A stretch of DNA of 64,000 nucleotides from contig NC_089856.1 in the NCBI RefSeq assembly GCF_036373705.1, forward strand, positions 1,985,501 to 2,049,500, in the 5' to 3' direction. The notes beneath the pieces are model-generated. The model was not told where the DNA came from and did no database searches. It saw only the letters and a list, made by a program, of their open reading frames with translations. The translations under genes and the position numbers were made by a program. Every line of letters begins with the position of its first letter. Position 1 is the first letter of the stretch. This DNA comes from Amia ocellicauda (lineage: Eukaryota; Chordata; Actinopteri; Amiiformes; Amiidae). Below are positions 1,694 to 7,668 of this stretch, piece after piece.

Positions 1694-4600
1694 ATGGGGA
1701 AAAGTAAGGTAAGCCACGTGTTATTAATTAAGCTGTAAAGCAGCTCTTACTGCAGTTGCACGTGTATCTATATAAATACACGTGCGATTATAAATTCCTC
1801 TCCAACAGACTTCAGTGACAAACAGTTTAATGAGGTTGTGTTTGTGCTTTGGTATATAATGCATCGTTGCAGTGTGTTTTTGCTAGTTTAAATCGTGTAT
1901 TTGTGAGAGGATTGCGATTTGTAATGCAATTTAATTACATACAATACAATTACAACTATAATATTGAGGTTTACGATGGATCCCCGCGGGAGCTGTGATC
2001 AGGGGATGCGGACGACAAGGCCCGTCGTTTCTGAAAACCTGATCACTCAACCGCGCTGATGCATCTGGTATATCGGCGGTCCGACCGGTTATATGGATCG
2101 ATGTACTTCTTTCATGTGATCAACCCTATTCCCCCTCTCAGACAAAGAACCAGAAGAAGTCTCGGCAGAACGCCCTCCATGTGGCCCAGGAGGAGTACAG
2201 CTCGGTCCCGCACTCGTTCGTCTTCCACCGGGGCCACATCGGCAAGAACGTGGAGCAGCTGGTGAAGGACATGCGGCGCGTCATGGAGCCCTACACCGCC
2301 GAGTCGCTCACGGTACATGCTCTCCAGACTGGCATGTTGTATGGGCTCAGTGTTTTGACTAATCAACAGATTGAGATCGGCCATATTAATATGACCGTTT
2401 TAGATGAGCCTACCCGAGTCAGTCATGGCATGAACTAATTGGGAGCTGCTGTTAGAACAGACACTGCGCCCCCCAGGACTCTGTGGCTTTGACTAGTGCT
2501 GGATGCAAGTGATGAAAGCTTAAGACATATTGAGGTTTCTGTGATACTTCAAAGTAAACGCACTGATGCATCTGGAATCGGGCGGGTCTGGCAGCGTGTA
2601 GGTCCTATAGGGCAGAAGTTCAGTGTGTTGCATTTCTTAGTTCAGGTCTCACCTGGGAGGGGGCTCTGAAAGCTGGAGACCCAGGATGCAGATCTAGCGA
2701 TTGTCGATTGGCTGCTTCACGCCTCGGTCCCTGATCCCTGTGCCGTTTCTCCCACGTCCAGGTGCGCAAGAAGAACGTACTGAAAGACTTCGTTGCCGTG
2801 GCGGGACCGCTTGGGGTGACGCACTTCCTAATCTTCGGCAAGTCGCCCTCCAGCATCGGCCTGGTGAGTGCTGCGGCCCTCTCTCTCCTCGGAGGGGAGG
2901 GTCAGAGGGATAGTTCATAGGATCGCTTTGTAAAAACTCCAGGAGAAGCGTCCCGTCCCCATTCTGACCTGACACCTCCGTCCTCTCCCTCTCTCTCCGT
3001 GCAGAGACTTGCCCGTCTGCCCAAAGGCCCGATGCTCCACTTCCGCGTTCTGAAGGTAAGGGTTCTAGATCGAGAACCGCTGCACAGAATCCCGAACCAC
3101 AAGCTTGATAGAAACCTCACGGACAGTTAATGGGCTTTTATTTATGTATTTATTTGCACACGCCCCTATCCAAGGCAACTTAGTTGACACTAGAAGTGCA
3201 GAAATAAGTTACTTATGATGCGTGTAACAGGCCTTGATTTCCGTTATACTGTGAAAAAACCGTTATGCTTCAAATTATAATATGTCCTTGTTGAGTTGAA
3301 GTCTGTTCTCATTTGTTTGAGTTGAGGAATAAATTACTCTTGTGTAACCCGTTGGAACCAAAATTAAAATGCAGTGAGGTGTTACTGGGGGGATTTTAAT
3401 TAAACTTATGGCCTTCAGTGCATTGGAAGCCCAGCCCAGTTCACAGGGAACCTCTCTCCCGGTGTGTGATGTGATTGGTCTTTAAACCCCCCCTCTGCCC
3501 CAGTACGCCCTGATCAAGGATGTGGTGTCGTCCGTGAAGCGCCACCGGATGCACGAGGAGCAGTTCACGCACCACCCCCTCCTGATCCTCAACAACTTCG
3601 GGGTGGAGGGCATGCACGTCAAGCTGATGGCCACCATGTTCCAGAACATGTTCCCCTCCATCAACGTGCACAAGGTGAGCGTCCGTCCAGCACCTGCCCC
3701 CCCTGATTGACAGCACATAAGAGTTTGTTTGCCAATTAAAATTGTAAGATCAATTGGCAAACAATTACATAAATTAGTCGGTTTGTCAGTAATTTTGGAA
3801 TGGTTTAATTCATTTGATTTATACTTTCATTTAGGAATTGATTAATTTAAGAATTAGATTTAAATGTGACAATACAGCTCCATAGAAAGCAGAGAGCATC
3901 TCTACAGTCATGTTCATTGCAGCTTTTGACCACAAGGTGGCAGCAGTGTCTTAGTTTGCTTCAGTGAGGAACCCATCGTATGAAGATCTCCGTGGTGGGC
4001 GTTTTGACCCAGTAGCCTCGTGAGCTGGGACTTCACTCGTCAGCTGCTGTTTCCAGTGATGCATCCGTGTTTGTTTTCATCACACAGGTGAATCTCAACA
4101 GCATCAAGAGGTGCGTCTTGATCAACTACGACCCCAAGACCCAGTCCATTGAGTTCCGACACTAGTAAGTGCCCCGTCGGTGTCGCCCCGGACACAGGCG
4201 TGTTTCCACAGCTGTGGCCGGTGCGGTACTTCAGTAACGTCTCCTCGGGTCACTTCCTGCCGGCCTTGTGTTGACAAAGGACCTGGGTGCAAGTGATGAC
4301 ACGTATACTTGCTGACGGCACAGTGATTTGTTTCAAAGTAAACGCACTGATTCACCCGGTCTCGGAGGCAACGCAGGGTGGGGGTGGAAGTCTGAGGGTG
4401 GTGGGGGTCTTTGGTCTCATTAATTTGGGTCGGGCTCGGCAGCCAGACTTAATCATTGCTCTGATCTCGGAAGTGTTTTAATTGGGGGAAATGCTTTCGC
4501 TCAACATGATAAAATGAGTAAACGCGCTCTGTCTCTCTCCCCTCTGCAGCAGTGTGAAGGTGGTTCCTGTGGGCATGAGCCGGGGGGTGAAGAAGCTCAT

Positions 4601-7600
4601 GCAGGAGAAGCTTCCCAACATGGGCCGATTCGAGGACATCAGCGAGCTGCTCATGAAGTAAGAGCCAGTGACCTTGGGGGGGGGCTACACTGACCCTGGG
4701 GTGGTCTTTCTGAGCGCACGGTCCTCAGTGGTCGTGGTCGGGTACAACGCGCTGTGAGTTCTGTGCTGCGCTGTGACGTTTAAGTAGCGTTTGTAGGTGG
4801 ATTGGGTGCACGTGATGTGATGTAATGTGTTGTTGATGGAACAGTGATCTTTTTCAAAGTAAACGCACTGATGCACCCAGTCCAGATCCATAAACAAATT
4901 TAGAATTCAATTAATCAATTAAGATCTCAGTTAGGACTGAAACCAGCAGGACCAGGTTTGGGAATATAAAGCATCTGAGCAAACCAAGACCACAAATGAA
5001 TCTGTAAGGGTGGTGGAAAGTAAACTAGGGAGAAGAACCCACTTCATAAGGCGTTCCACCGCGCCGTCCCTTCGGTTGTCGTTTAACCTGTGGGTCGTCT
5101 CTCCATCCCAGGGGGGCCAACCTGTCGGAGAGCGAGGCGGAGCAGGACGGGGATCACAACATCACGGAGCTGCCGCAGGTGTACGCCGGCCGCGGTAACA
5201 TGAAGGCCCAGCAGAGCGCCGTGCGGCTCACCGAGGTACGGACGCCCGGGTGGCTGAGCTGAACTGTGTCCGGACACTGAAGCAGGGAAACACAGGGACC
5301 AGCCGCACTTTAATCTCCATGGCTGGGGTCAGATAAATAGGATGTACAGCTGCATTGAACGAGTAGTGGTGGGTGAATGTGCTCCACCTGGTGGAATTCA
5401 ATTAAGTAAGGGCTCAGCTGAAACAAAAACCAGCAGGGCGGGGGCTCCTCCAGGACCTCTAGTCTAGACGAGCAGGGAGAGAGTGGCAGGCGACTGCGTG
5501 TGAGGAAGGAGGGATGGGGTTTGTGTGATGATGGTATAGTCTGCTGACCTCTCCATGACGTCTACAAGAGTAAACGCTTTCTGACAAGCCCCCCCCCTCC
5601 TTTCAAATGTAGGTCTTTCAGTCGTCTGGTCCCCCAGCGTGCAGGAAGTGGGAAACTGCGCTCGCGTGTCTAATGTCACGGCCGAGGCCCACTCAGCTGC
5701 TTTTTATAAATTTTTTCCGTTGCCCACATGATCAGTCTCTCCTCCTTCTTGTCCCCAGATCGGCCCCAGGATGACCCTGCAGCTGATTAAAATTGAGGAA
5801 GGCATGGGCGAAGGCAATGTGATGTACCACGCTGTCGGTAAGTGGTCGGCTGTGTGGGTTTTCAGTTCAGTGAGAGGAACTGATGGAGTACAGTAGCAGT
5901 CCTGCCCCAAACTGGACTGGATGTCAAAATAACGTGAAAGTTATTGAATTTGTTGCAAATTTCCAGGAAGTTTACAGCAGTTTCCCAATTACACAGCTGC
6001 GTTTGTACTGGAGCATTCTGGGCACTGCAGCAGTGTCCCCCACCTGGGTCTGAATCCTCCGCACAGGATGCACGTGATGAAAGCTAGTCTGCTGATTGTG
6101 TTGTGATGTCTCTTTTCAAAAGTAAACGCTTACTGATGCATCCCAGAGCTTTTCACAAGCCTTTCCTGAGCCTTTTCTCCCTGAGAGCCGGCCTGCGGTC
6201 TAGAGGCCCGTGTCTATCAATCGATTTTGATTTGAACCCTTTAACCCCCTTCCAGTGGAGAAGACCAAGGAGGAGCTGCGGGAGATCCAGGCTCGCAAAG
6301 CGAAGAAGCTGCAGCAGAAGGAGGATCGCAGGAAGGCCCAGGAGCAGAACATCGCCCTGAAGAAGGAGAAACAACGGGAGAACAAGTGAGTACCCCGAGG
6401 TGGCCGGCAGAAGAGCATTCTGGGTAGAGTACCTTTGTCAAGAGTACAGCAGTGACCCCACACCCCTCCAGAGCCCTGGCCAGCGCTCCACACTGGATGC
6501 AAGTGATGAAAGCTGTTCTACTGATTGTGCGGTGATTGTTCTCTTCAAAAGTAAACGCTTACTGATGCATCCGAGCGCCTTTCACAAGCACAGTACAGTC
6601 GCCCCCCGTAGTTGCACTGTAATTGATGTTGAAGCCATCATGCAAATGTAGGAGCTAAACTAAACGTAGAAGCCCTTATTCGAGAGCCACATCGGGGCGG
6701 GGAAGAGCTGGAGGTTTGCAGTTGACCGTCCCCATCTGGTCTGCGTGAGGAAGTGACTCATTTTCAGTAACAAGTGACCAGTTTCACTTCCCCCCCGAGC
6801 GTATGGCTGGAAACTGTTTCTCCGTGTGACTGACTCGGCGTGTGACGTGACCCTGACAGGCAGCGGAGTCTGGAGGGAATCCGGAGGAGGAAGGAGGAGC
6901 AGGGCGAGGGCGACGACAGCGAGGTGGAGGATCCCGGCACGCAGGAGGACAAGCCGGCGCTGGACGAGGAGTCTGACGAAGAGGCCAACTACTACAGGGA
7001 GGCCGTGGGGGAGGAGCCGGACGAAGGTGAGGGAGCGCGGCTCGTTTGTGTTCGGGTGGATGTTAGGGATGTGATGACGTCCCATTAGGTGCTTTTTTTT
7101 TTACTAGACAGGTTGTCACAATTTAAAATGCAAAGGCCTTGCTTTCCTTGTGTACGTGTTGAGCGATGTACGATTGCGGTCGTGATCTAAAGCCGTCCCC
7201 TCCTTTCCTCGTTTCCTTTCAGACATGTTCCCAGACGCCTCCAAGCGGAAGCGGAGGAGGGCTGAAGGGAAGCCCCACAATCCCTTCAAGAAAAGGAAGT
7301 TCTCCGCGGAGAGAGGGGACAAGGCGGGCCGAGACCCCGCCCGGGAGGGACCATCCAAGAGGGGCCCGAAATACGGCAAGGGCTCCCCGGGGCAAGGCAG
7401 GGGCAAGGCCGAGCGGGGACGGGCGGGCGACGGGGCACCGGGGAAGCGGCACCAAAGGCAGGGGGAGAGGAAGTTTGGAGAGGAGAAGAGGAACAAGTTT
7501 GGGGGGAAGAAGTTCGGGGGGAAGACGACCCCGGGGGCGGCGAAGGGACTGAAGTTCAAGGGGCAGAAGGGGAAGCCTCGACCGGGGTTGAAGGGAAAGG

Positions 7601-7668
7601 GGCAGAGCAAGGCGAGGCCTGGGGGGAAACCAGGATTCAAGCAGAGAAAGGGTAAAGGCAGGCCGTAG
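1694..7668 (+). CDS. PPAN: PPAN (Peter Pan/SSF1 homologue), pre-60S ribosome assembly factor, 12 coding exons
   Basis: Coding exons: 1694-1708, 2142-2312, 2762-2863, 3005-3055, 3504-3674, 4088-4164, 4550-4657, 5112-5235, 5759-5837, 6256-6385, 6860-7026, 7223-7668. They total 1,641 nt (546 aa plus stop); all junctions are GT-AG and all phases agree. The protein is a Brix-domain nucleolar factor (SSF1/SSF2 in yeast) needed for 27S pre-rRNA processing and 60S assembly. Diagnostic stretches are VAGPLGVTHFLI (exon 3), HGMHVKLMATMFQN-like (exon 5), NLNSIKRCVLINY (exon 6), DGDHNITELPQ (exon 8) and IGPRMTLQLIKIEEG (exon 9). The start MGKSK is the first ATG after the CpG region and splices in frame. 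The tail from exon 10 on is charged coiled-coil, then acidic, then a Lys/Gly/Arg-rich low-complexity region, longer than in human PPAN (473 aa). Introns 2, 6, 7, 8, 9 and 10 each host a snoRNA, so splicing probably supplies both products. Confidence 0.97.
2500..2573 (+). ncRNA. SNORD105: Box C/D snoRNA copy 1 (SNORD105-like, U799 class), PPAN intron 2
   Basis: The terminal stem GGATGCA (2501-2507) faces TGCATC (2567-2572). The C box GTGATGA is at 2509-2515, a C'-like TGTGATA at about 2540, and the D box CTGA at 2563-2566. The antisense element TCAAAGTAAACGCA directly precedes the D box. It pairs with the 18S rRNA segment GCGUUUACUUUGA, and the fifth base from the D box faces the first U of GCGUUU, which is U799 in human numbering. 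Human PPAN introns carry SNORD105 and SNORD105B, so location and target agree. Confidence 0.85.
3140..3200 (+). repeat. SINE-tail-like dispersed motif in PPAN intron 4
   Basis: An AT-rich run of TATT units followed by CACACGCCCCTATCCAAGG and CAACTTAG resembles a motif common in fish SINE tails (GCAGACGCYYTTATCCARRG). A second, better match is at 61056-61092. The family assignment is inferred from memory of the motif only. Confidence 0.4.
3930..3946 (+). promoter_or_regulatory. CTCF-like motif in PPAN intron 5
   Basis: CCACAAGGTGGCAGC matches the vertebrate CTCF core (CCASYAGRKGGCRSY) at 14 of 15 positions by my count. Occupancy is unknown. Confidence 0.45.
4283..4359 (+). ncRNA. SNORD105: Box C/D snoRNA copy 2 (U799 class), PPAN intron 6
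   Basis: The stem GGGTG (from 4285) pairs with CACCC (to 4357). C box GTGATGA 4293-4299, D'-like CTGA 4312-4315, C'-like AGTGATT near 4322, D box CTGA 4347-4350. The antisense element TTTCAAAGTAAACGCA (4331-4346) abuts the D box and gives the same predicted 18S target (U799) as copy 1. Confidence 0.87.
4803..4880 (+). ncRNA. SNORD105: Box C/D snoRNA copy 3 (U799 class), PPAN intron 7
   Basis: The terminal stem TGGGTGCA / TGCACCCA is perfect. The C box is the variant GTGATGT (4812-4818). The D box CTGA is at 4868-4871, preceded by TTTTCAAAGTAAACGCA (4851-4867), the longest match to the 18S segment in this set. Predicted target U799. The variant C box could lower its expression or stability. 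Confidence 0.83.
5381..5466 (+). repeat. Half copy of a dispersed palindromic repeat, PPAN intron 8
   Basis: The segment AATTCAATTAAG, then GGCTCAGCTGAAAC, CCAGCAGGGCGGGGGCTCC and TCCAGGACC, corresponds to the right half of the fuller element at 34101-34386. A similar half copy is at 4899-4965 in intron 7. Confidence 0.5.
5516..5594 (+). ncRNA. Box C/D snoRNA copy 4 (C797 class, divergent), PPAN intron 8
   Basis: This is the most divergent copy. C box GTGATGA 5525-5531, D' CTGA 5544-5547, C'-like CATGACG near 5554, D box CTGA 5581-5584. The terminal stem uses a different sequence (GGGGTTTGT with ACAAGCCCC, one G-U pair). The guide AGAGTAAACGCTTT ends at the D box, so the fifth base faces C797 rather than U799; one G-U wobble lies within the duplex. 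Confidence 0.72.
6065..6144 (+). ncRNA. SNORD105B: Box C/D snoRNA copy 5 (C797 class), PPAN intron 9
   Basis: The stem GGATGCA (6066-6072) pairs with TGCATCC (6137-6143). C box GTGATGA 6074-6080, D' CTGA 6092-6095, C' TGTGATG 6102-6108, D box CTGA 6133-6136. The guide AAAGTAAACGCTT is followed by one A and then the D box, which places C797 opposite the fifth base. The SNORD105B symbol is tentative, because I have not compared it with the human sequence. Confidence 0.83.
6494..6573 (+). ncRNA. SNORD105B: Box C/D snoRNA copy 6 (C797 class), PPAN intron 10
   Basis: The stem TGGATGCA / TGCATCC encloses C box GTGATGA (6503-6509), D' CTGA (6521-6524), C'-like GGTGATT (6531-6537) and D box CTGA (6562-6565). 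The guide AAAAGTAAACGCTTA is nearly the same as in copy 5. The two look like recent duplicates and share the predicted 18S C797 target. Confidence 0.83.

Follow-up and report, generated by a model that had tools for sequence, protein, structure and literature searches.

Two D-box registers among six box C/D snoRNA-like elements in the PPAN introns of Amia ocellicauda, with predicted targets U799 and C797 of 18S rRNA

Two kinds of described box C/D snoRNAs serve as a reference for the locus reported here. According to a table in PMC6466398, SNORD105B is hosted by PPAN and targets U799 of 18S rRNA. The second kind is associated with C797 of the same rRNA, a position that was found to be incompletely methylated in human fibroblasts, at a level varying with the growth state (PMC10911272), and that is also methylated in mouse muscle (PMC11426995). 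In chicken, the RNA of GGgCD20, located in intron 1 of COX7C, was detected and predicted to be the guide of C757 (C797 in human), a site previously without a guide (PMC2653536). In mouse, e307 from the second intron of Cox7c is 92% identical to human ZL107, contains the mir-3607 sequence, was confirmed by Northern blot, and is a predicted guide of "18S C798" (PMC4238357), which is taken here as human C797 under other numbering; ZL107 is also named in PMC5597630 and PMC4053766. The COX7C snoRNA (GGgCD20/e307/ZL107) presumably corresponds to the Rfam family snoZ39, an assignment made through the mir-3607 sequence. The snoZ39 primer printed in PMC3384982 is consistent with this assignment, as is the Rfam consensus. 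For zebrafish, 35 18S sites are given in a review (PMC8393311), and in a frog map (PMC8797249) and a human 40S structure (PMC10164566) the number 797 appears in the reference lists only. Among the open-licence papers listed by literature searches, none was recognised as a description of C797 guides in PPAN introns. A preliminary description of the present locus had held both positions to be methylated in human; this stands for C797, while U799 was met only as the listed target of SNORD105B. It had also proposed the emergence of a new target specificity, which is not borne out in that form: predicted C797 guides have already been described in chicken and mouse COX7C introns, and, because these guides as well as C797 methylation are known, a specificity for C797 did not first appear in this fish.

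The stretch of DNA analysed (64 kb, hereafter the window) originates from the 988-Mb genome of Amia ocellicauda, and the PPAN gene lies within its first 8 kb. Hand-placed splice sites gave one open frame across the PPAN exons, with GT...AG borders at introns 1–10. When the first 398 aa of the protein were used as a query, a Brix domain was detected (E-value, 1.2e-46), and the chain 8fkp_NN, named "Suppressor of SWI4 1 homolog", was matched with an E-value of 7e-154; we take this name to denote PPAN. Introns 2, 6, 7, 8, 9, and 10 each carry one C/D snoRNA-like element (n = 6). The gene and its elements, the latter divided into two classes by their predicted targets, are as follows:

1694..7668, + strand: PPAN host gene, 12 coding exons, 546 aa, Brix domain
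2499..2574, + strand: copy 1, class A (predicted U799 type), intron 2; C box 2509-2515, D box 2563-2566
4283..4359, + strand: copy 2, class A, intron 6; C box 4293-4299, D box 4347-4350
4802..4879, + strand: copy 3, class A, intron 7; C box 4812-4818 (variant GTGATGT), D box 4868-4871
5516..5590, + strand: copy 4, class B (predicted C797 type), intron 8, the most divergent copy; C box 5525-5531, D box 5581-5584
6066..6143, + strand: copy 5, class B, intron 9; C box 6074-6080, D box 6133-6136
6493..6573, + strand: copy 6, class B, intron 10; C box 6503-6509, D box 6562-6565

All six copies display the anatomy of box C/D snoRNAs, i.e., a C box (RUGAUGA), a D box (CUGA), a terminal stem, and an intronic location. 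The D box reads CTGA in 6/6 copies and the C box GTGATGA in 5/6, with canonical forms of both boxes retained in copies 4, 5, and 6. With its C box, GTGATGT, copy 3 is possibly an atypical C/D RNA or a weaker one. The non-standard C box of this copy (4812-4818) is nevertheless accompanied by the longest rRNA pairing of the six (17 bp). Copies 4 and 5 (5516-5590 and 6066-6143) have TAGTCTGCTGA in common at the D' box. The snoRNAs had initially been placed in the interval 4803-6573, which contains copies 3–6, with copies 1 (~2499-2574) and 2 (~4283-4359) lying outside it. A covariance model (R1) built from the six copies, and thus finding them by construction, recovered them at E-values of 1.7e-17 or lower in a search of the window, and no further R1 match better than E = 0.46 was present there (20 matches listed up to E = 10). 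A candidate seventh copy in intron 1 (2049-2071), seen as a BLAST match to the 3' end of copy 1 (E-value, 0.005), was rejected: its fold is no better than those of shuffles (z = 0.06), and it is absent from the R1 matches.

The 8-bp terminal stem is paired in 46 of the 48 cells across the six copies, and five of its eight pairs are changed on both sides. The stem covariation amounted to 0.558, as compared with 0.271 in shuffled alignments, and none of the 500 shuffles was as high in paired cells, both-side changes, or covariation. Sliding the partner by 1–3 columns reduced stem pairing to 25–44%. The number of further pair types in the stem (8 vs 6.8 in shuffles) was not significant, with 133/500 shuffles as high, and was counted against the stem. 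The stem structure was derived from the same six, related sequences that were used in the covariation test, and, six related rows being few, the covariation is regarded as support and not as proof. In copy 4, several stem pairs differ from those of the other copies on both sides, and the stem still closes. When the copies were folded singly, copy 1 gave the best z-score (−2.57) and copy 5 the poorest (+1.15), with 176/200 shuffles as good as copy 5. The z-scores of copies 2 and 3 were unremarkable (−1.10 and −1.25), and for copy 4 (−0.62) as many as 50 out of 200 shuffles were as good. Such modest values would be expected of C/D snoRNAs, whose middle is single-stranded.

In class A (copies 1–3), the D box is found directly after AAACGCA, one base (A) past AAACGC, whereas in class B (copies 4–6) it follows AAACGCTTA/TTT and lies three bases past AAACGC (TTT, TTA, TTA). 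The two-nucleotide D-box shift noticed in the preliminary description is thus borne out, and so is the order of the classes along PPAN, A, A, A, B, B, B. The antisense core is common to the six copies; in each of them a single CTGA comes right after this guide core, with the terminal stem closing beside it. The pattern AAACGC-N(0-5)-CTGA was found six times in the 64-kb window (both strands), every time on the + strand within PPAN, at positions 2556, 4340, 4861 (AAACGCACTGA), 5572 (AAACGCTTTCTGA), 6124, and 6553 (both AAACGCTTACTGA). For AGTAAACGC-N(1-3)-CTGA, 6 occurrences were observed vs 0.01 expected per window (200 first-order Markov simulations); the bare AAACGC is unremarkable, with 34 occurrences in the window vs 24.1 expected. 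When copies 5 and 6 are aligned to U105B by Rfam, two nucleotides are found inserted immediately before the D box (CUGA); the spacing in the snoZ39 consensus, GUAAACGCUuUCUGA, is that of class B.

The D+5 rule, by which the modified base is read from the D box, is well established. With an assumed 18S target piece (CCCGAAGCGUUUACUUUGAAAA...), which is not this species' own sequence, the fifth base from the D box lies opposite U799 in 3/3 class A copies and opposite C797 in 3/3 class B copies. The letters at the target are presumably AAGCGTTTACTTTGAAAA. These counts on the assumed rRNA support the D+5 assignment originally proposed (U799 for class A, C797 for class B) as one of predicted targets, and the anatomy of the copies makes it well supported at the sequence level. 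On the assumed rRNA, the class A guides form duplexes of 14, 15, and 17 contiguous pairs, each running up to GCG. For copies 5 and 6 the uninterrupted pairing comprises 13 bases, with the inserted TT against AA, and their register upstream is lost via an extra A; copy 4 forms 11 pairs, followed by a G-U. The shift thus appears to come with a matching change at both guide ends, as expected of a slid duplex, and, since both ends changed in class B, the duplex probably slid as a whole. Given that SNORD105B is assigned to U799 (table in PMC6466398), the two-base spacing of the predicted targets agrees independently of the assumed rRNA letters.

Comparison of the copies revealed that copies 5 and 6 match at 85.6% over 104 nt including flanks, and copies 2 and 3 at 80% over 80 nt. 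Across the classes, an 80-nt match of 77.5% links copy 1 to copy 6 (E-value, 5.7e-9), and the two share an identical 22-nt stretch, CTGGATGCAAGTGATGAAAGCT, outside the guide, while the matches of copy 1 to the class A copies 2 and 3 are weaker (E-values, 8.5e-7 and 2.4e-7). Copy 4 is distant from the other copies. The pattern supports a probable local duplication with kinship across the classes. The earlier suggestion that one block diverged from the other can be retained only in part: the close pairs 5/6 and 2/3 speak for it, but copy 1 is nearer to copy 6 than to copies 2 and 3, copy 4 stands apart, and the likeness of copy 1 to class B argues against a clean two-block split. As the class A kind is also listed for PPAN in human (SNORD105B), class A is favoured as the older one in PPAN, and the change may have run from A to B.

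None of the six copies tested reached any Rfam gathering score, which was counted against them. With snoU105B, copies 2, 3, and 1 scored 39.8, 35.7, and 30.5 bits (RF01173 gathering score, 49), and with snoZ39, copies 5, 6, and 4 scored 27.2, 23.6, and 19.9 bits (RF00341 gathering score, 39). The snoU105B family also scored on class B (26.1 bits for copy 6 and 20.4 bits for copy 5). Similarly low scores were obtained with other C/D families (SNORD41, 28 on copy 2; snoZ196, 23.8 on copy 6; SNORD101, 19.5 on copy 4), so the sub-threshold scores are weak evidence that would not alone place the copies. Since scores on class B were obtained with snoU105B as well as with snoZ39, its descent from either is possible. 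Class A resembles SNORD105/SNORD105B (U105, U105B; RF01173) in its PPAN host, C/D anatomy, and predicted U799 register, and the SNORD105B guide, CAAAGTAAACGC with one base before CTGA, is the same in class A. Because the RF01173 gathering score was missed, the class is called SNORD105-like and not SNORD105. In contrast to SNORD105B, three class A copies are present here, all below the gathering score (best, 39.8 of 49), next to class B copies with two more bases before the D box. Class B has the same predicted target, C797, as the COX7C guide/snoZ39 (RF00341), and the snoZ39 consensus and copy 4 have the same GUAAACGCUUUCUGA guide-to-box spacing. Unlike the COX7C guide, class B is hosted by PPAN, shares its body sequence with the U799 guides, and falls below the snoZ39 cut-off, and no guide of the bird and mammal type was seen at COX7C of Amia ocellicauda.

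The full C797-type gene pattern (TGATGA-N35-65-GTAAACGCTTNCTGA) gave three matches in the genome, namely copies 4–6, and none in the reversed control. The class A gene pattern gave two, copies 1 and 2; copy 3 is absent because of its variant C box. At the stringency of these patterns, which guides with other sequences or boxes would escape, both guide kinds sit in PPAN in this genome. With GTAAACGCTTNCTGA alone, 606 genome matches were obtained (reversed control, 3). Among the first 30 of them, inspected by eye, 29 belong to a single interspersed repeat, in which CTGA is preceded by C, and the remaining one is a different sequence; none of these 30 loci looked snoRNA-like. The repeat (L167-L195), containing ...CCTTCCAAGTGTAAACGCTTCCTGATCCCGGGACTTCCTG..., represents a trap for guide-word searches. 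Limiting GTAAACGCTTNCTGA to A/T at the variable place left four matches (reversed control, 2), i.e., copies 4–6 and C24:20832593. The latter was rejected as a C797 guide: no C box was found on reading, no Rfam snoRNA matched at E ≤ 5, and the match to R1 is one of the guide core only (14.3 bits; E-value, 0.0086), taken as chance. A genome search with the snoZ39 family yielded one match (E-value, 5.5) without the guide core, among the best 70 of 216142 candidates scored.

One COX7C exon lies above the family cut-off in the genome (7 matches listed at E ≤ 10), and the 9.9 kb around it (L020) were searched. A COX7C-hosted guide was rejected, the two AAACGC on the gene strand of L020 being located far upstream of the gene and without a D box after them. 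No RTGATG(A/G/T)...CTGA pair 30–110 apart was found in these 9.9 kb. Rfam gave 13 weak matches in L020, none to snoZ39 or U105B, and R1 gave nine, the best with an E-value of 2.5. No guide was therefore recognised in the COX7C stretch, where one of quite different sequence could still lie.

The reading we prefer, at a probability of roughly three in four, is that the six elements are PPAN paralogs produced by local duplication, with class A directed at U799 and class B, whose D box was slid by TT, directed at C797. It is based on the anatomy, the stem covariation, the register on the assumed rRNA, and the absence of a recognisable COX7C copy. Local duplication would have generated six paralogous intronic box C/D snoRNAs in PPAN, all of them presumably expressed, of which class A (copies 1–3) would guide 2'-O-methylation of 18S U799, like SNORD105B in PPAN. 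In class B (copies 4–6), the D box stands two nucleotides (TT) further from the shared guide core, so that guide base five, counted from the box, would be G and not A, and methylation would be moved to C797, which lies two bases on the 5' side of U799. The two A's that precede GCG would pair with the inserted TT and the other guide end would lose pairing, the whole pairing region having slid. Class B most likely takes the role of the COX7C-intron snoRNA (GGgCD20/e307/ZL107) of birds and mammals, with which it may share descent. The C797 site itself is old; the apparent novelty lies in the PPAN host and in the visible kinship of U799 and C797 guides in one gene.

Class B might instead have arisen from a COX7C-type (snoZ39-like) snoRNA inserted into PPAN, or from gene conversion that mixed both kinds, with no slide in PPAN. 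The identity of GTAAACGCTTTCTGA in copy 4 and in the snoZ39 consensus would fit such an origin, as would the scores of class B with snoZ39, which class A does not match at E ≤ 10. However, the identical 22-nt stretch of copies 1 and 6 lies outside the guide, snoU105B likewise gives scores on copies 5 and 6, and the COX7C stretch of this genome yielded no recognisable guide; this origin is considered unlikely. The chances are slimmer for class B being composed of decaying class A duplicates with a neutral 2-nt insertion, poorly made or guiding nothing. Canonical C and D boxes have been kept in copies 4, 5, and 6, as have 13 contiguous pairs in copies 5 and 6; the insert of the three class B copies is complementary to the (assumed) rRNA, the stem of copy 4 closes despite both-side differences at several pairs, and the Rfam snoZ39 consensus is spaced in the same way. 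Decay would nonetheless account for the divergence and short pairing of copy 4, the loss, from copies 5 and 6, of the 5' guide portion seen in class A, the unremarkable folds of copies 4 and 5, and the position of every copy below the Rfam cut-off.

It is highly improbable that both classes methylate the same base, with the box position being read flexibly and the shift being silent. The antisense core common to the six copies agrees with such flexibility, but the D+5 rule is opposed to it, and so is the single CTGA per copy, placed directly after the guide core with the terminal stem closing beside it. In addition, the chicken and mouse COX7C RNAs have been published as C797 guides (PMC2653536 and PMC4238357).

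Beyond the preferred reading of PPAN paralogs with a slid D box, a more tentative scenario, to which we give less than even odds, is that the C797 guide was born in PPAN from a duplicated U799 guide by the two-base D-box slide and was later rehosted to COX7C toward amniotes, the fish retaining the original layout, in which three guides of either kind lie side by side. If this birth in PPAN is true, SNORD105 and snoZ39, which are separate in Rfam, with snoZ39 assigned to no clan, would be one family. Under the preferred reading, the locus would be a readable case of snoRNA target change, comprising duplication, a 2-nt D-box shift, loss of pairing at the far guide end, and retention of the paralogs in one gene. 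It suggests descent and a host change for the guide of C797, a position whose methylation varies between human growth states (PMC10911272), and it would involve no new modified site and no new mechanism.

Searches with the class A guide complement and the 5.8S family did not find an intact 18S in this assembly. The class A guide complement, GCGTTTACTTTGAA, occurs at 10 places in the genome (reversed control, 1); three of these are copies 1–3, and the other seven gave no Rfam gathering match. The 17-nt complement of the copy 3 guide was scanned in at least 120 genome-contig and 12 viral-contig stretches, and the expected 18S word followed none of the 133 matches listed. GAAGCG stood in front in two of these 133 listed matches, but both are bacterial records with other flanks. 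The 5.8S family had one match, on contig C23 (best 39 of 18329 candidates scored). The stretch before it was recognised as what we presume to be the 5' end of 18S, starting 264 bases before the 5.8S match, and the locus (C23:29414400-29424300, L166) is a broken rDNA remnant. In addition, U2 snRNA gene arrays were observed on contigs C144, C166, and C18 (46 scored matches, part of them in loci L001-L008), with several of the matches on C144 and C166 lying ~0.95 kb or ~7 kb apart.
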